Below are positions 45,500 through 56,426 of a DNA stretch of 64,000 nt, piece by piece. The position numbers were made by a program, and so were the translations under genes. Each line of letters starts with the position of its first letter. Position 1 is the stretch's first letter. The notes under the pieces are model-generated. The model saw only the letters and a program-made list of their open reading frames with translations. It was not told the DNA's origin and made no database searches. Source of the DNA: Diplocarpon mali (Eukaryota; Ascomycota; Leotiomycetes; Helotiales; Drepanopezizaceae); assembly GCA_024741835.1 (NCBI GenBank), contig JAENRP010000194.1, forward strand, positions 894 through 64,893, given 5' to 3'.

Positions 45500-46740
45500 T
45501 AGCTGAATCATTAGGACTAATAGCTGAGATTACTAGCTTAATTGCTAAAAGTACTCTACTACTTAAATCACCTATTTTTAAAGGGACTAATATATAGTAC
45601 CTTAAACTCGAATTCAATAGTTTATCTCCTCCTCTTCCTCCTTCTCCTCCTTTCGATAACTCTATATATATATATACAAATAAGATATTATTATTATCTT
45701 TAGCTACCCTTAGCCTCCTTAAGTCTTAAAAGCTTAAAGGCGCAAAGGACTATAGCTAATAGAGGAATAAGGTTTTAAACCTTGCAAAGTCAAACGCCTT
45801 AACTATGCATTTCTATATAAAAGCTAGAATATATACTCCACCTAAGGTTGACTTATAGGACCGTTCTATTATACTTAAGGAAAGGGACAATTAGATTAAA
45901 TAAGAAGCTAAGGAATCTTAAATAAAGTTTGCTATTATACTTAATTATAAACCAGGCCTACTAGCTTATATAAAAGGCGATAAATCTACCTTAGATATAT
46001 AGAAAGCTCTTTAAAAATAGTACAAAGGATCTGGAATAGTGCTTAAATATAATGCTATCCAGACCTATATTACTATTAAATATAATAACTTTAATTCACT
46101 TAAAGCTTATATTATCGCCTTTAGACTTTCAATTACTAAATTAGAAGCTTTCGACTTTGCCCCTCCCTCTTACTAGCACCCTATTATATTTATTACTAGC
46201 TGTTCTAATAGATGGCCTATTTAGGCAGATTGATAACGTTCTAACCTTCGCTTAGCTATAGCAGCTAGACGAAAATCAAAGATTACGCTTAAAGCTCTTA
46301 TTAAAGATATTACTAATAAAGCTTAAGCCTTATAAAGTTTAAAAATAAATAGAACTATCTTATATAGTAATAAATCGGCTAGCAAGCCGTATTCCTTTAA
46401 CTATAAGAAGTTAGAAAATAAAGAAGGTTTCAAAGACTTAAAGAAGAGCACCTTTAGGAATACTATTACCTTTCCTAACTCCTCCTATCCTTATTGCAAG
46501 CAACCAGAGCTATATCATAAGGCAGAAGATTGCTTTGCAATTAATAAATCGAAAAGAGAGACTTAAAAGAAGGATTCAAGGAAGAAGTACGTATTCTATT
46601 ACCTTAAAGGTAAGGACGATAAGTCTTTGCTATTATTATTACCAAAAGGTAAGAAGCCTTTTAAGAAGATTCAAAAGGAAGACGAAGAGTCAGATAATGA
46701 TCTCTTTAGGCATACTATGCTATTACTAACCCTAGGGCCA

Positions 46741-46775
46741 ATTCTCACTCGCGAGCCAGGCCTAGGAGTCAATTC
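46741..46775 (-). repeat. Palindromic mini-repeat P, instance 1 (copia A gag)
   Basis: ATTCTCACTCGCGAGCC then AGGCCTAGGAGTCAATTC; inverted relative to instances 3-10. In the element frame it reads ILTREPGLGVNS. Confidence 0.75.
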
Positions 46776-46805
46776 CTTACTAAGAGGCGATTCTTCTTTA
46801 AGACC

Positions 46806-46841
46806 GATTTCCACTCGCAGGCCAGGACCAGGAGTCAGTTC
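46806..46841 (-). repeat. Palindromic mini-repeat P, instance 2 (copia A gag)
   Basis: GATTTCCACTCGCAGGCC then AGGACCAGGAGTCAGTTC; inverted orientation. Reads ISTRRPGPGVSS in the same frame as instance 1, 30 bases downstream of it. Confidence 0.75.
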
Positions 46842-48219
46842 TTTTACCTCTTGCTTCTTATTAAAATTAAGGAATCGTTAGCTATATAATATAAGTGCTA
46901 ATAAGCATATTTCCAATAATCTCTTTAAGTTCACTTCTTATACTACTTAAGACAATCTACCCTCTTTAAGTACAGTTAATAGATCTATTCAACCTCTTAG
47001 CGTTAGTACTTGCAAAGTTAATACACTTAAATCTAATAGAAAGGTATATATTCTTAAGTTAATTAATACTTTCTATATACCTTAATCATCTATCTGCCTA
47101 TACTTAAATAGTAAACTTAATAAAATCAAAGGTTTCTATCGAAATAGTAAGCTATTCCTATCTAATAAAAAGGAAATTTGCACTATCGATAATAATATAT
47201 ATATTAATAAGGAATAGCCTTTTACTAATTCCTTTAATTATATAAGTGGATATGCTCTCTTAGCTGCAATCGAGAATGGACCTCTTAATATTAAGCTCTA
47301 GTACTATCGATTAGGCTATGCTAGCTTATAAATAGTTAAAAAGACCCAATTTGCTATTACTAATATGCAAATCAAGGAAACGAAATTAAGGAAGATGCGA
47401 ATTTACGCTCCTTGCGAGAAAGGCAGACCTCTTTAATATATTAATAAACGTTTAGCTCGCCCTCGACCTACAAAGGCACTTAACGAATTATATATTAATA
47501 TAGTTCATCTAAAGCCAATTAGCCTTAACGGTTATAAATACGCTTCCATCTTTACTTGCGTAGCTATAATAGCTAAGTAGGGATAGACTTATATAAATAA
47601 ATCTAATACCTTTAAAGCAAATAAGAAGATAATCAGCCTCTTATAAACTTAGTATAATTGTATAATCAAGCGTTAGAGAACTAATAAAGGCAAGGAGTAC
47701 TCTCCTATATAAATGTAAATACTTATAGAAAACCTTAGCATAATTTTAAAGGAATCTACTCTATATACGCCAGAATAAGATAGCAGATCGGAATAATCAA
47801 TTTGCATACTAATAGAAAATTTACAAATAGCTATAATTAACTAAAATATCCCCTCCTTTCTTTAGCCTTACCTCTTTCTTTCGATAATATATATCACTAA
47901 TCTTACTGCCTTTAATATTCTTAATAGCAAGACTCCATATAAGGTCTTTTAGGATAATATCGAGCCTAATAAGCCTTATACTCCTTTAGTTAAGTATCTT
48001 CGAGTACTAGGCTATCGCGTCTATATATTAATTAAGAAAGAAAGGCAAACTAAAAGTAATAAACTCACTTTAAGAGCAAAGGTAGGTACTCTTATTAGAT
48101 TTAATAGTAGAAGTATCTATCAAATCTATATATTATTATAAATAAGTGAAAAGATTATTCGATTATCTTACGTTCGATTTGATAAAGACGGCCTAATTAT
48201 AGAGCCGCAATTAAAAGGT

Positions 48220-48254
48220 GATTTCACTCTTAGGCTAGGACCGCGAGTCAATTC
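48220..48254 (+). repeat. Palindromic mini-repeat P, instance 3 (copia A, IN-RT linker)
   Basis: GATTTCACTCTTAGGCT then AGGACCGCGAGTCAATTC. Reads DFTLRLGPRVNS. First of three copies in a row. Confidence 0.8.
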
Positions 48255-48264
48255 TGACTCTTAT

Positions 48265-48299
48265 GATTTCACTCCTAGGCCGGGACCGTAAGTCAATTC
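48265..48299 (+). repeat. Palindromic mini-repeat P, instance 4 (copia A, IN-RT linker)
   Basis: GATTTCACTCCTAGGCCG then GGACCGTAAGTCAATTC. Reads DFTPRPGP, a stop (TAA) and VNS. Ten bases after instance 3. Confidence 0.8.
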
Positions 48300-48318
48300 T
48301 GACTCTTATAATAATAAT

Positions 48319-48353
48319 AATTTTACTCCTAGGCTAGGACCGCGAGTCGATTC
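48319..48353 (+). repeat. Palindromic mini-repeat P, instance 5 (copia A, IN-RT linker)
   Basis: AATTTTACTCCTAGGCT then AGGACCGCGAGTCGATTC. Reads NFTPRPGPRVDS after a run of Asn codons (AAT repeat). Confidence 0.8.
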
Positions 48354-49523
48354 AAAAGAAGCTAATAAAGTTAAGCTTCTAACTCTAAGAAAGAGAGGAA
48401 GACCTCTTAGTTTAAAGAACAAGGCTTACCCTTAGCCTTTTAAGAAGAGAGCTACTCGCTTTACTGCTTTTAGATTCAAAGCTAATAACTCTAATAATAA
48501 GGAAGCCTATTTAAGCGCCTTCCATATAGTCTTACTTAACTCTCTATACCTAAATGACCTAAAAACAGTCGAATAAGCCCTCTCTTATACTAATGCTAAT
48601 AAATGGCAATCTATAATCAACTTTAAGTACAATTCCCTTGCTTATAAGAACATATAGGTAGTAGTAAAACGCTTAGAACTCTTTAAAGACGATAGAGTAC
48701 TTAGATCAAGGCTTATCTTTAAAATTAAAAGAGACTAAAATAGGGAAATCTCCTAATAGAAGGTCAGATTCGTTATATAAGGCTATATGCAATAATAAGG
48801 TCGAGATTATAACTAGACTTTTGCTAAAGTATGCAAATCTGCGGTTTAAAAGATCGCAATTGCGCTTGCAGCGCTATATAACTTTAAGCTAGATCAGTTC
48901 GATATTAAAATAGCTTTCCTTAATTCAAAAGCTGACTTTAATATCTATATCAAATTACCTCTTAAATACACTTAAGATAAGGTTGTTCTTTTACCTTAAG
49001 AATACTATCTTAAGCTTCTTAAGGCCTTATATAGCTTAAAGCAATCTTTATAACTATAGTAATAAAAGCTATAGTTTAAGTTGCAAAAGCTCGATTTTCA
49101 ACCTCTCGATACTAATAATTGCATATATATCAACTGCGCCTCTTAGATTCTTATTGTCACCTATATCGACAACTTCCTTATAGTAGCTAAGAAAGGTAAT
49201 ATATATAATAAGTTCAAAAGAGATCTTTGCAACCTCTTTAAGATTATAGGTAGCGAACCGGCTAACTACTTCTTAAGAGTACGTATAGTCAGAGATCGAT
49301 AAAATAGAACAATCTTACTTTATTAAGATGCTTATATTAATAAGGTTCTTAAACGTTTTCATATAACTAATTGCAAGAGCGTACTAACTCCTTTTACTAA
49401 TAGCTATAAAGTTCATATAATCAAATTTAAAGGCTAAGCCACTCTATAGGAAGTAAAGCTATATTAAAAGATCTATAGTTCTTTATAGTACCTTACGCAT
49501 TATACGCGTTAGGATATACTATA

Positions 49524-49528
49524 CTACT
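49524..49528 (+). other. Target-site duplication CTACT, left
   Basis: Five bases immediately left of the gypsy 5' LTR, identical to 56681-56685. Confidence 0.8.
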
Positions 49529-49782
49529 TATTACGGCCGCATTACGTACACGGTTATGTCACGTGTTAGTCAGGTGTACGAAGTCAGGTGCCCGCTAAGG
49601 TAGCAAGGTGGCTAGATCATATGCACGCTAGTAAAGCACCTGTACTTATTCTAAAAGAGCTCTACTAGAGACCTCTCTTCTTCTTTATCTTTTCTTCTTA
49701 ATTATATAGCGTACCTCTTAAGGTAATACAATTAGCATTATTCGATTCTCGCCTTTTATACGCTTAAGAGCGAGTTATAATA
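49529..49782 (+). repeat. Gypsy 5' LTR
   Basis: 254 bases from TATTACGGCCGCATTACG to GAGCGAGTTATAATA. The TG..CA termini are inferred to have decayed to TA..TA. It aligns along its whole length with 56427-56680; most differences are C/T or G/A. Confidence 0.88.
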
Positions 49783-50835
49783 TAAGAAAAGATCAATTCA
49801 ACCTTTATTAAGAAGCTTAATATCTACTACCTTTAGAATCATTATTTCAAACTACCTTAAGTAACTTGATCTTTCGATCTCAACTTCTATTACAAATTGC
49901 CTTAAGCAACTTATACGTAGCGCCTAGATCTTACTAATTTAGTTTTTAAAGAAAGCTGAAAAACGACCTTCAAATATAAGATCAGCTCATTTTTTCGACC
50001 TCTTACCTCTTCTATTTGGCAAATAGAGATTTACCTTTAATTTCAATTCGAAAAAATTTTATTTACTATACCTTTGCTTTGCTAGCGTAGGCTGCTACCT
50101 AAAGCGGTATAATAGCTTTTCTCTTCTTAACTTTCTCCCTCCCTTATAAATAACTCTATACCACTCTTTTTTTTTTATTAACCTTATACTTGTTGACAAC
50201 TCTCCTTATACTCTTCGAAGCTCCTTACTCCTTCTTTCGAAACCCTTGAATATAACTCGACTCTTTAAAGACACCTCCTTGCGAATATATTATCGACCTT
50301 CTCTATACTTCCCGTCGACTTATACTTGTCGACCTATACTTATCAACTCTTCCTTATACTCTTTGAAGCTCTTTACTCTTTCCTTCGAATACTTAGGTAC
50401 GAAACTAAAGGACCTATACCTATATATATATATAAAGACTTAGTTAGCCTTAGTAGGTTATACTATACTATTAGAGACTAGGTTAACTTTAGTAAAGTAA
50501 TAAGCTTTAGATTCCTAGACCTTACTTTCCCAGATTTGCACTATACCCTTAAGCAACCTTATTATAATTCCTAATTAGTAAAGAGAAGTGATCCTAAAGT
50601 AAAACCTTCTTTTTTAAGATCTATAAACCTACAATACTTTAATATATACTTTATTAAAAGGCTTTAAGAATATATATAGCTCTGCCTATACTAATCTTCC
50701 CCCTTTTAAATAAGTTACTATTTAGCATTAGGTCCTTTTAGATTAAACTAGATAATATAGAAAGAGTTAGTACTTATAACCTCTAATCTTATACTACTTA
50801 AGAGAAGTAAAAGGTTAACCGCACCTCTACTACTG

Positions 50836-50899
50836 GGCCTTACTGCCACCAGTTCTATAGGCCTTACTGCCACTAGTTCTATAGGCCTTACTGCCAACC
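50836..50899 (+). repeat. 24-bp tandem repeat in gypsy gag
   Basis: Two full units and one partial unit of GGCCTTACTGCCACCAGTTC plus TATA (50836-50859, 50860-50883, 50884-50899). In frame it reads GLTATSSI repeated. Confidence 0.85.
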
Positions 50900-50958
50900 C
50901 TAGTCCTAGAGATATTCCCTCTCCTAAGCCTACTTAGGAAGAAACCTCCCTTAGTACC

Positions 50959-50993
50959 GATTTCACTCCTAGGCCTAGACTATAAGTGGATTC
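50959..50993 (+). repeat. Palindromic mini-repeat P, instance 6 (gypsy gag)
   Basis: GATTTCACTCCTAGGCCTAG then ACTATAAGTGGATTC. Reads DFTPRPRL, TAA, VDS. Confidence 0.8.
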
Positions 50994-52732
50994 TTAAAAT
51001 ACTCCCCTTCTATCGATTAAAGTTAAGGAAGAATTGACATCTACTCTTACTATATCGGCCCCTCTCTTTTTAGCTACTTAATAGGCTAAAATCGCAAACC
51101 TCGTTAGCGCTGCTATAGCCGCTGCTCTTTAAAATAATACTACTGCCCCTTCTTCCTTAAGTGCTAGCCCTTAGAATACTCAGTCCTTTACCGCCGACTT
51201 ACTACCTTCCTTAGACTACTACCTCTTAATTATTAGACCTTTAGTCCTAGCTATCGACCCTTATTAAATCAAGTACCCTTAAACCCATTTTAATAACCAC
51301 TAGGGCAAAATTACCTATAATACTTAAAAGATAGCTATAAAGGTATTTATTTAAAAGTACTTAAGTAACTTCACTTTAAAAAAGGACTAAATCACTGCCT
51401 ACTTTAAGTATATAATAAGTAAAGCTTAGAACCTAATCTTATAATATATAGATCCTATCTTTACTAATAAGTTTATATACGCTACTAATATCCTTAAGGT
51501 CTTAGATTAAAGGTTCTTTAACTATAATTATATTTAATCCGCTAAGCTTAAATATAGCAGGCTAACTATAGGTTTATTATTATATAATAAGTTCTAATCC
51601 AAGTTCATTACCCTTGCTATAATTAGAAAGATCGATTAGTCTTACTAGTTTGATAACATTTATAAAAAGGTCTCCTTAGCCTTAAAGAACAACCTTTAAG
51701 TAGAAAAGTATAAAATGAATAATAATTATATTACTTTAAATAAGTTCTTAGCTATTACAGACCGCAAGGCCTATAATATTAAGTAAAAAGAGGCTTATAA
51801 TGCTTAACAAGTCGCTCCTACTATTATATTCTCTCCTTTAAAGGACCGCGTCCTTAGCATATTAAAAAGGGAGTTATAAAGACCTACTGCTATAGCTACC
51901 TCCTTAGCTTCTTATACTTATTCCCCCTTACCAGCGACTTATTAAGAAAGGTCTACTAGCCTAAAGCTGTTATCTAATCTCTGCTATAACTATAGAGCCC
52001 TTAGTCACTATACGATAAACTACCTAAAGCTAAAGAAGCAAGGCAAGTTTATAATAGCTAAAGTTAAGATAGAAAACAACCTACTATTAGGAAACTGCTA
52101 AGCTATAGCAAAGACTCCTATTATAGTATAAGTTATAATTTGTAAAAAGACTTAGATTTTGATTCCTACCTATTAATAGGCGGCTGCCAATTCTTAATTC
52201 CTATAGAACTAGCTTAAAATAGATCATTTATTAAAATAGTTACTTATATTAATAATAGAGCTAATATTTTCAATATTATTAAGACATCTTTAGCATACTA
52301 GCTCTCTTAAAGACTTAAGGTAAAGTTTATTAAACTACCTAAATTAATTACTCCTATTAGCTATAATAGCCTTAAAGGAGAAACTATTCGATTTGCTATC
52401 TTACTTACCCTTATAATCAATAGGCGATAAATAAACTTCCCTTTCTTAATCATAAGCTTAAGAGCAACCGACATTTTAATTAATAGGAAGTTCCTAAAGT
52501 ACTATAACCTTAAATAGTCCTATAAAAGGGGAAAAAACAGCATCTCTTAGCTTAAGGATATGCCTATTATCTTCTACTTTAATTAATACGTATTAATCGA
52601 TCTCTTATAACTAATAAAACCCTTAATAGCCTAGTAAGACATCGATTATTAAGCAGCTATAATAGACGCTAAGGACAAAGACCTTAGAATAGCCTAAGCC
52701 TAGCTCTTAGTGCTAGCAAGCACTAACGCCTC

Positions 52733-52768
52733 GAATTCCACTCCTAGTCCTGGCCTATAAGTGAAATC
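52733..52768 (+). repeat. Palindromic mini-repeat P, instance 7 (gypsy, protease-RT linker)
   Basis: GAATTCCACTCCTAGTCC then TGGCCTATAAGTGAAATC. Reads NSTPSPGL, TAA, VKS. Confidence 0.8.
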
Positions 52769-52777
52769 TGCGAACTC

Positions 52778-52813
52778 GAATTCTACTCCTAGTCCTAGCC
52801 CGCGAGTAAAATC
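52778..52813 (+). repeat. Palindromic mini-repeat P, instance 8 (gypsy, protease-RT linker)
   Basis: GAATTCTACTCCTAGTCC then TAGCCCGCGAGTAAAATC. Reads NSTPSPSPRVKS, nine bases after instance 7. Confidence 0.8.
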
Positions 52814-54695
52814 TACTAATTCGATTCCTACTCCTATAGCCTTTTATAAACCTAAGGATAGTAGTTTCTTTAAAGATTTAAAAAGAGATCTGAACTATAT
52901 AAAGAAGGCTTTGCTAAGAGTATTAGACCCCTTGCTCCCTCTCTTAATAAAGAAGAACGCTACTTTAAAGCTAGCTTACTAGATTAGCCTAATCTTAGCT
53001 TTAATAATCAGCGCCCTTTACTACCGCTTTATAACTAAGGTAAGATAAGCTATATAAACTTAAGAACTAGCGCTTAAAGAGTTTATATTCGTAAGCTCTA
53101 TTTATAATCTAGACTAAGAAATCAATTGCTAAGAATCGGTTAGATAAGCTAAAATTAGCTCTCTTAGCCTTAGTTCGGCGCTATAAGCTAAGTATAAAAG
53201 TAATAATAAGCTAATAGACTAAAAGCTCCTGCCTTAGTATACTAAGTTTAAGAATATCTTTAATCGCTAAGCCTTTAATCAATTGCTAGAACTTAAGCTA
53301 AGGGTAGATTATAAAATCGAGCTAATAAGCGAGAACAATTTAATAATCGAACCCTTTTGCCGCTTTACTAATAAATAGCTCTTAAAGGTCAAGAGCTATA
53401 TTCTTAAGAACCTATATAAAGGATTTATCGAAGCTTTAAGTTCCCCTTAGGTAGCCCTAATCCTCTTTATTAAAAAAGCTAATAGCTCCTTACGTCTATA
53501 TATTAACTACTAGAAACTAAACGCCTTAATAAAGAAAGACCCCTACCCGATTCCCCTTATTAATAAGATAATAGCATATATATTAAAAGCTTGTGTTTTT
53601 ATAAAAATCGATATATAATAAGCCTTCTACTATATCCGCATATTAGCTGATACTAAGGACCTAACTACCTTTTACACACGCTATAGGACCTATAAGTATA
53701 AGGTTTTACTATTTAAGCTGATAAATAAGCCTATTACCTTTTAAAGGTTTATTAATAATATTCTCCTTAAGCACCTTAACGATTTCTACTCTGCTTACTT
53801 AAATGATATTCTAATTTACTTAGAAAACTCCTTTAATTATAAGATTTATATTAAGAAGATCTTAGGAATTCTTTAATACTATAGCCTTTAAGTAGATATT
53901 AAGAAAAGCGAGTTTAAGGTTATTAAGACTAAGTTCTTAAGGTTTATTATTAGAGTTTATAGAATTAAAGTAGACCTTAATAAGGTCTTAGTCATTTAGG
54001 AGTAGAAATATACTAAGAATGTACACAGTATATAAAGCTTCTTAAGGTTCTGTAACTTCTATTAAAGGTTTATTTAAAGCTATAGTTATATCTGCCGACC
54101 CTTAATAGCTTTTATAAGAAATATTCCTTTTGATTTTAATAACGCTTATAAGGAAGCTTAAGAAGCTCTGCGCTTAAAGCTCTAAACGACCCTGATTTTA
54201 TACTACTATTACCCTTAGAAGTAGATAAGGCTTAAGACCAACGCCTCCGATAGCATAGTCGCTAGCGTACTCTCTTAACTCTAGGAAGACGAGAACTACC
54301 ACCTAATTAGGTACTTCTTAAAGATAATAAATAACACTAAGCTAAATTACCCTATTTATAATAAAGAGCTCTTAGCAATTTTTAAATCGTTCTACTAGTA
54401 TAAGGCAAAGCTACTTAAGGCCTAGAAAATAGTATATATATATATAGATCATAAGGCCCTTAAGTACTTTATAACAACTAAGGACTTAATAGCTTAGTAG
54501 GCTTGCTAGGCAGAGTTCTTTGCTAATTTCAACTTCCTTATTATATACTAAATAAGTATAATAAATACGCTAGCTAATACACTCTTACATCAAGACTAAG
54601 AGCTAACCCCTCTTAAGGCCAGGAAACAAGCTTTACGCCACTAGTAGCTCTTACCTAATAATAAGCTCTCTATAGAAGTACTCGCCACTAGAGGC

Positions 54696-54727
54696 GATTC
54701 TACTCCTAGGCCCGGCCTACGAGTAAC
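54696..54727 (+). repeat. Palindromic mini-repeat P, instance 9 (gypsy, RNase H-IN linker)
   Basis: GATTCTACTCCTAGGCCC then GGCCTACGAGTAAC. Reads DSTPRPGLRVT. Confidence 0.8.
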
Positions 54728-54740
54728 TTTAGCGCAGATC

Positions 54741-54772
54741 GATTCTACTCTTAGGCCTAGCCTACGAGTAAC
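54741..54772 (+). repeat. Palindromic mini-repeat P, instance 10 (gypsy, RNase H-IN linker)
   Basis: GATTCTACTCTTAGGCCT then AGCCTACGAGTAAC. Reads DSTLRPSLRVT, 13 bases after instance 9. Confidence 0.8.
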
Positions 54773-56426
54773 AACTGTACCAATCGCGCTAATAAAGGCA
54801 CTTGCCGACCTAACGTCTAAGGTCGAGTACGATATAGCAAGCTACTATATTATTAATAAGGTCATTTAAGCTAATAAGACCTCCTTTAAGCTATAGAAGT
54901 TCTAAGATAAGGCGCAGAGCTATAGCCTCGATTATAAACTCAGCTAAGGCAAACTTTTCTTTTAAAGTAGACTTATCGTACTATCTTAACCTCCCGAATT
55001 GCAAATAGCCTTAATTTATTATATATATAAGCAACCTTGCGTCGCATATACTAGAATCGGGAAAACAAGGCTTCTAATAGGAAGAAAATACTATTAGAAA
55101 AGTCTTAGTAGCAATATTAGCACTTATATTTAAAACTATTATTATTTGAAAATGAAAGCTTATTATAATAAGACCCTAGGTTTCTTATAACCCTTGCCAA
55201 TTCCTAAATAAGCTTACTAACACTTGATAATGGATTTTATAAAGCTTCTACTTAATAAACTCAGTTATAATTTTACCTTTATAATTATCGATAGGTTATT
55301 AAAGAAGGCAGTTTCGATTCTATACTATAATTCGATCGATGCAAAAGGCCTTATAAAGTTGTTTTTAGTTCATTAGATATACTATTTTAGCATACCCGAC
55401 TCGATTCTATTAGATAGAGGCGCCTAATTCGTCTCTTCCTTTTAAAAAGAATTCTATCAGATACTAAGTATAAAGGTCAAGCTAATTATAGCTTATAACC
55501 CTAATATCAATAGCTAAACTAAGATTATAAACCAATACTTAAAATAACGCCTTAGACTATTCTACTTATACTATTAAGACAATTGGAGTCGTCTCTTGCC
55601 TTTAATAGATATTGCCTAATTGACTTTACCTTATAAATCCCTAGGGCAAATTTCCCCTTTCTAAGTGCTAAACAGCTATAAAGCTCGCTCCTCTTAGAAT
55701 TTAATTAACCTAAAACCTTTATAAATAGCAAATAAAAGAGTAAATCGTAAAACAGCGCTTTATATAGCTATTAGAGCTTAAAAAGTAGTCTAATTCGCTT
55801 AATTGTCTCTTTAAGTATAATAAGCTAAAATGAAACGGCTTGCAGATCTTTACTACTAGCTAATTAATTAGACTATAAGAGATAATATGCTAATTAGTAT
55901 TAAAAATTAGAAACTGGACCGGCCGAGCCGAAAGCTCTCTAATAAGTAGTATAGCTTAATAAAAGTATTAGAAAAGCTAAGAGAAAGCTAAAAGCTATAA
56001 TTGCTTAATTTACTTTATTCGATCTACCCTATATTCTACTCCTACTTATTGCGAAAATACGTTCTTAACCCTTTGCTAGGCTAAGCTTAGGAACCTCCTA
56101 CTCTAATTAAAATATTACTAGAATAAGAGAAATAGGAGATAGAAGAAATAATTGGATCTTATATTTAAGTTAGGAAGCTCGAATATCAGATTAAGTGGAA
56201 AGGAGCTAATAAAGACCTCGAATAATACCTATACTCTAATGCTATAATAATGCCGCATGCTATTCGAGACTTCTATTTAAAAAACCCTTAAGCTAAGAGG
56301 CTACTAAGGGCGCTATTAAGCTGGCTTAGGTTATATAATAATAGAATTGACGATTATAGGGACCTAGAGGACAATACGCTTATAGATACAACTGCGCAGG
56401 CGTAGTTTTTTAAAGAGGAGGGGTAG

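Follow-up and report, generated by a model that had tools for sequence, protein, structure and literature searches.

A near-palindromic 35-bp repeat common to copia and gypsy retroelements of Diplocarpon mali

The window analysed here, a 64-kb (64,000-nucleotide) stretch of the Diplocarpon mali genome (contig JAENRP010000194.1, positions 894 to 64,893; C194:894-64893 in the genome search), carries ten copies of a short, near-palindromic repeat unit, all within two retroelements. Five lie in the coding region of a copia element (46130..49535, plus strand) and five in that of a gypsy element (50901..56301, plus strand), both degraded by repeat-induced point mutation (RIP). The gypsy region has matches to RVT_1 and RNase H and a weak match to rve; the copia region itself has no Pfam match and was assigned via its paralogs and an intact relative. 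A protein encoded in the window is 94% identical, over 72% of the query, to a D. coronariae protein and 83% identical to a D. rosae protein, which places the genome in D. coronariae (Helotiales) or a very close relative. In one strain of D. coronariae, with a genome of about 51 Mb, copia elements are put at 20.7% and Ty3 elements at 5.7% (PMC11527701).

On the gag-protease side of the copia element, a single linker holds unit 1 (46741..46775, minus strand), which is in B-A orientation (half-site types are described below) and reads TREPGLGV in frame, in a paralog as well as in the window, and unit 2 (46807..46841, minus strand), likewise reversed and reading TRRPGPGV. The linker between integrase and reverse transcriptase (RT) holds three units on the plus strand: unit 3 (48220..48254), unit 4 (48265..48299), 45 bp further on, and unit 5 (48319..48353), another 54 bp on. 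All gypsy units are also on the plus strand, with unit 6 (50959..50993) on the gag side, where the frame is locally ambiguous, units 7 (52734..52768) and 8 (52779..52813) in one linker between the gag/protease region and RT, and units 9 (54696..54730) and 10 (54741..54775) in one linker between RNase H and integrase, each pair 45 bp apart. These are the ten copies, five copia and five gypsy, reported in the initial annotation; all are present, and the window holds none besides. A matrix built from their 34-mers (starting at 46742, 46808, 48221, 48266, 48320, 50960, 52735, 52780, 54697, and 54742) scores them at 36.6 to 46.0, the next-best site in the window reaching 8.3. Because the copies are near-palindromic, their reverse strands also score highly with the same matrix (22.8 to 33.7). 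With a symmetric version of the matrix, the same ten are the only matches in the window, and 250,035 shuffled bases give none. Eight of the copies share one orientation, and those at 46742 and 46808 have the other.

The architecture of the unit was derived from 25 representatives, taken from different contexts and read in both directions. It has the form RATTYN-ACTCSYRGKCC-N-GGMCYRSGAGT-NRAATY, that is, two inverted half-sites (ACTC-SYRGKCC) around a free base. A 23-base core, ACTCSYRGKCCNGGMCYRSGAGT, is strongly conserved apart from its free centre, and since weaker palindromic conservation extends about six bases beyond it on either side, we take the unit to be about 35 bp long. The half-sites are of two types, A and B: 20 representatives are A-B or B-A, five are B-B, and none is A-A. 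At the variable YR pair of the core, CG and TA predominate, which a change of CCCGGG to CCTAGG by RIP-like mutation would produce, and the intact copia protein introduced below reads T-P-G-P-G-P-R-V, which is compatible with CCCGGG. Before such mutation the core is open throughout: its 64 variants give no stop in 384 frame readings. After conversion to CTAGG, stops appear in 40 of the 64, in two phases out of three on each strand.

The unit is abundant in the genome (49,369,952 bases in 676 contigs). Allowing up to two mismatches, the A-B core ACTCCTAGGCCNGGNCCNNGAGT has 945 + 994 = 1,939 matches on the two strands, against 0 + 0 for the reversed pattern; a 14-mer has 3,396 + 3,434, against 385 + 422 reversed; and the CCCGGG form of the core has 1,156, against 0 reversed. 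Counts for the CCTAGG and CCCGGG forms overlap, and one near-palindromic copy can count on both strands. At two of the listed places (L005 and L110) the 14-mer is present and the unit absent. Loci L001 to L130 contain 245 distinct units in 165 site groups (overlapping loci being counted more than once), which fall into 17 classes by flanking sequence; four of these (13, 14, 15, and 16) were singletons, and classes 14 and 16 later matched further copies. The early searches used the CCTAGG form and were thus biased toward RIP-hit copies, and the CCCGGG form was searched afterwards. Twenty-one of its listed places, picked for letters unlike those of the known classes, all lie in repeats, 20 in known classes and one in a new class, for which 40 relatives were scored of 256 candidates. 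In total the flanks define at least 18 distinct contexts. These include copia and gypsy elements and both coding and noncoding sequence, and units occur in either orientation, among coding sites also, so that the claim of a compact near-palindrome common to unrelated retroelements stands. As far as sampled, units are confined to retroelements or unassigned repeats. Copies in host genes, which the initial annotation proposed looking for, were not seen in these contexts, which were sampled by pattern with no genome-wide annotation of host genes. Elsewhere, IMG/VR gave a single match, in a GC-rich contig, and GTDB gave one place in each of 14 contigs, of which 10 are from Streptomyces; all were judged to be chance.

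Several of the carriers can be assigned. Classes 0 and 2 correspond to linkers in a single copia element, and class 1 lies in the 3′ part of that element, at a site that is probably noncoding, since the lengths of its A-runs vary freely. Classes 4, 15, and 16 belong to the gypsy element of the window. A single long frame of locus L039 (1,733 codons with 77 stops), in which no Pfam family was found, contains classes 5, 6, 7 (two units), 11, and 14. Class 17 lies between the RNase H and integrase zinc-binding domains of a second gypsy pol, whose frame contains a further unit downstream. In several contigs class 17 is found about 6.6 kb upstream of class 7, and the two may belong to one large element. 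We also observed that a copia RVT_2 domain follows the long frame of L039:2-5200, which is possibly part of one very large element. Class 12 is in an open frame that looks like a gag, and class 13 shares its locus with classes 8 and 12. Class 9 (L019:2503-2902, L101, L127, and L186) consists of arrays of 7-9 units in an open frame, with a peptide like STRSPGLGV and a spacing that alternates between 48 and 39 bp. In class 10 (L102, L021, and L055), three units about 64 bp apart, mostly not at multiples of three, occur in a repeat near copia copies that is probably a noncoding part of some element.

A stop-free piece of the copia linker retrieved no protein at E 0.1, and a longer query retrieved 65. 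One of these (P0118; PZA11_001233, a hypothetical protein of D. coronariae) is an intact polyprotein of a copia element, in which the peptide occurs five times, in two linkers. A scan for the peptide motif found none in the other 64 proteins, bar one chance variant in a Tanacetum protein. Among the three proteins that could be measured by anchors, linker 1 has 45 residues in P0118, 18 in P0119 (Rhynchosporium graminicola), and 14 in P0120, and is thus 27 and 31 residues shorter in these two relatives.

The initial annotation had all copies in frame in linkers, and most of them are indeed in frame between domains. In the window copia element, the first core base is in the same frame for all five copies; upstream of 48210 no other frame has so few stops, and beyond it this frame shares the lowest count. 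Units 7-10 are in the pol frame of the gypsy element. For the copy at 50960 the frame is ambiguous, two frames having 13 stops each in 173 codons, and noncoding copies exist elsewhere. In the proposed statistical test of frame bias, 12 of the 14 coding sites with frame evidence of their own share one phase, with the core A at codon position 1 (p = 8e-5 for the named phase, 2.5e-4 for any phase). The evidence is the intact protein for classes 0 and 2, the Pfam frame for 4 and 16, the gag-like open reading frame (ORF) for 12, the long ORF for 5, 6, 7a, 7b, 11, and 14 (all six units of the L039 frame having one phase), and the pol frame for the unit downstream of class 17; classes 9 and 15, in which the frame is ambiguous or known only from the unit, were excluded. 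Class 17 has its core A at codon position 3, reading T-R-L-A-V-L-A-R-E-S in the RNase H/integrase frame, and class 8 has it at position 3 as well, if it is coding at all.

Such a bias might mean that the peptide was itself selected, as a Pro/Gly-rich linker acquired by several polyproteins; the dominant phase, the position of units between domains, and an in-frame variation in unit number all agree with this suggestion, which the initial annotation had listed as an alternative. The peptide is not the only thing retained, however: units also occur in noncoding classes 1 and 10 and, in class 3, beyond the long ORF; class 17 reads a different peptide; and fourfold-degenerate positions are nearly fixed, the third base of the ACT codon being T in 94% of the 25 representatives read both ways. 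Since a different codon phase is used at one site and perhaps at a second, a shared peptide does not account for all the units; DNA was what spread. The linker-peptide explanation is already weakened, and we regard it as improbable.

Unit number varies within sites. The class 0 copia site has one unit in one locus, two in 10, three in 16, and four in three (30 loci). In coding arrays (classes 0, 2, 4, 9, and 16) all 117 spacings are multiples of three, as is one of six in noncoding class 10. As units within one site have spacers in common, grouped copies look like local tandem duplications. Local minisatellite growth therefore explains the grouping of units, and the one to four units of the copia site agree with it. 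To account for the whole pattern, it would have to be joined either to chance resemblance between elements, which is excluded by the recurrence of one 23-base core in at least 18 contexts, with no reversed matches, or to descent from one ancestral linker, which is untenable given copia and gypsy carriers and copia relatives that lack the peptide. As a full explanation it is excluded, and we leave this combination a very small residual probability.

The initial annotation inferred a selfish mini-element moving between retroelements, and proposed a search for empty sites. Copies were located by flank or span, and the unit was then looked for, with 40 copies listed for each class. It was present in 30 of 30 loci examined for class 0 (one to four units each), 20 of 20 fetched copies for class 1, 13 of 13 for class 5, and 20 of 20 for class 17; for class 7, with subfamilies only 70-74% identical included, the first unit was present in 27 of 27 and the second in 26 of 27. 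For class 8, all 40 alignments cross the unit without a gap of that size (judged from spans, letters unread). Occupancy is thus 176 of 177 site-copies, and in the sole exception, L148 (second unit of class 7), homology is lost at that point, so that it is no clean empty site. Units are therefore old within each family and vertically inherited there. The sharing of the unit by several families upholds part of the earlier inference; its current mobility is not supported, because nearly all site-copies are occupied even in the divergent subfamilies. An autonomous or trans-mobilised mini-transposon that is still moving would account for the many contexts and both orientations, but this occupancy, together with the failure to see a target duplication or any identified host gene among the sampled contexts, makes it highly improbable.

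As a separate observation, copies cease to be homologous at the unit or close to it in L148, L210, L159, L163, and L164, as if units were recombination points.

Constraint on the unit was assessed from transversions alone, since these do not arise by RIP. They affect 9 of 184 core columns and 176 of 1,545 flank columns (p = 0.005), and at third codon positions the figures are 3 of 50 and 80 of 445 (p = 0.028). Conserved cores are favoured in four sets (c2, c4, c14, and c16) because these were gathered by pattern, and the c4 core dropped out of the count; where copies had been located mainly by flank (sets 7a, 7b, 5, 17, and 1), the core varies at 7 of 115 columns and the flanks at 121 of 886. 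Much of the signal comes from class 7a. Class 17 shows the opposite (core 2 of 23, flank 2 of 156), and so did class 4 when counted earlier. Of the single units chosen for folding, 7 of 7 are more stable than their shuffles on average (z -1.36 to -3.56). A conserved structural RNA hairpin, for example one for dimer initiation, was considered and rejected, as there are no compensatory changes between the arms: at nearly all 18 symmetric pairs, paired cells equal the shuffled expectation, and positions 5/19 pair in 5 of 25 representatives against 8.7 expected.

The main rival to the explanation we prefer makes the unit a cis-acting DNA site, whose two inverted half-sites would be bound by a putative dimeric protein of the host or the element, with selection having placed the units in retroelements and keeping them there. 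A half-site structure without pairing covariation, the half-site combinations (20 mixed, five B-B, no A-A), the lower frequency of core transversions, at third codon positions too, the units in noncoding parts, and their retention in subfamilies 70-74% identical all speak for a selected site. Yet elements vary widely in the number and place of their units, a binding site has no need of the single phase in which most units are translated, classes 17 and 4 (the latter in the earlier count) have cores more variable than their flanks, and the four pattern-collected sets favour conserved cores. We consider a selected binding site rather unlikely, if well above the other alternatives so far described.

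Our preferred explanation, to which we give somewhat less than an even chance, is that the unit is an old mini-repeat that was exchanged among retroelement lineages, kept mainly as a Pro/Gly linker, and multiplied as in-frame tandems. A lineage-specific, translatable repeat of about 35 bp, most often with one half-site of each type, would have been copied in the past between copia and gypsy lineages of one fungal genome, in either orientation, and also between sites within elements. The route we prefer is exchange inside the retroelement pool, either through gene conversion or through RT template switching when RNAs are packaged together; this would account for the restriction of the unit to retroelements in our sample. 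Copies in linkers, reading T-P-G-P-G-P-R-V or T-R-x-P-G-x-G-V, may have been tolerated through a filtering for harmless Pro/Gly readings and then inherited as each family amplified, some of them growing locally into in-frame tandem units, mostly 39-54 bp apart. The sequence of the unit, its occurrence in several families and in both orientations, the frame bias, the in-frame spacing, the fixation within families, and the shorter linker 1 of two relatives are observed; we infer the copying step and its mechanism.

A bolder version, which we hold as doubtful, makes the unit a hyperparasite living on retrotransposons. In this view a palindrome of 35 bp, whose six frames were all open until RIP-like decay set in, would have spread within the LTR-element pool of one fungal lineage by hitching on reverse transcription, and would have colonised many linker sites in several copia and gypsy families.

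Several results weigh against an account based on past exchange. There is no clean empty site among the 177 site-copies, and insert length and target duplication are not definable from the sites seen. Compared with MITEs and other DNA transposons, which have terminal inverted repeats flanked by a target-site duplication, the unit has inverted arms, and no empty site defines a duplication. Linker 2 shows no net gain, with 73 residues in P0118 and 76, 82, 78, and 82 in four relatives; the linker 1 lengths fit a gain in the Diplocarpon copia element, and linker 2 does not decide. Openness in six frames is permissive rather than distinctive, because 56.6% of random 23-mers at 74% GC are likewise free of stops. 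Several of the sites in the frame test share an element and are not independent, which weakens that test. Finally, the scarcity of core transversions hints at function, although it is suggestive only. Vertical descent of all copies from one ancestral linker, named in the initial annotation among its grounds for refutation, is excluded by the copia and gypsy carriers in at least 18 contexts, but inheritance is vertical within each family.

Intracellular bacteria are the main known source of protein-coding palindromes, whose spread is unexplained. Rickettsia palindromic elements (RPE) are palindromic DNA, roughly 100-150 bp long, that is translated in frame inside proteins. The present unit resembles these and the protein-coding palindromes of Wolbachia (as cited in PMC6649704 and PMC2996958) in being translated in frame where tolerated and in having many copies per genome. 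It differs in occupying a nuclear fungal genome, in being too short for an RPE at about 35 bp, in forming local tandem arrays, in being carried (in our sample) by retroelements instead of host genes, and in being fixed in every family tested. PARCELs are likewise tandem palindromic coding repeats of variable number, found in some taxa in mobile-element-associated ORFs, but they encode a 25-residue amphipathic domain, whereas the peptide unit here comprises 8-12 Pro/Gly-rich residues plus a spacer, in retroelement polyprotein linkers. The coding palindromes of nematomorph mitochondria are also inverted repeats within coding sequence but are long, perfect, and in organelle genes, where ours are short, imperfect, and dispersed in nuclear retroelements (PMC6649704). 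A palindrome is also conserved in the hairpin site of fungal GalEa copia elements, which is 9 bp of other sequence, just after the 5′ long terminal repeat and not repeated in the ORF (PMC5445492). No report of the present repeat was found in the literature searched, most subscription journals and all preprints being outside its coverage.

If true, the hyperparasite reading would make the unit a counterpart, in a eukaryotic nucleus, of the protein-coding palindromes of bacteria. The RIP-like marks on old copies and the published assemblies of the species and a sister species (PMC11527701; PMC5628827) make it testable which sites were once empty, and whether the unit travels with reverse transcription or is bound by a protein.

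Two minor features of the window concern its retroelements. The class 1 part normally follows the copia linker at a distance of about 2 kb; here the distance is some 17 kb (48353 to C194:66332), so that the gypsy element and other DNA are probably nested in the window copia element. Just upstream of unit 6, at window positions 50836-50883, lies a 24-bp tandem repeat (GGCCTTACTGCCA...).

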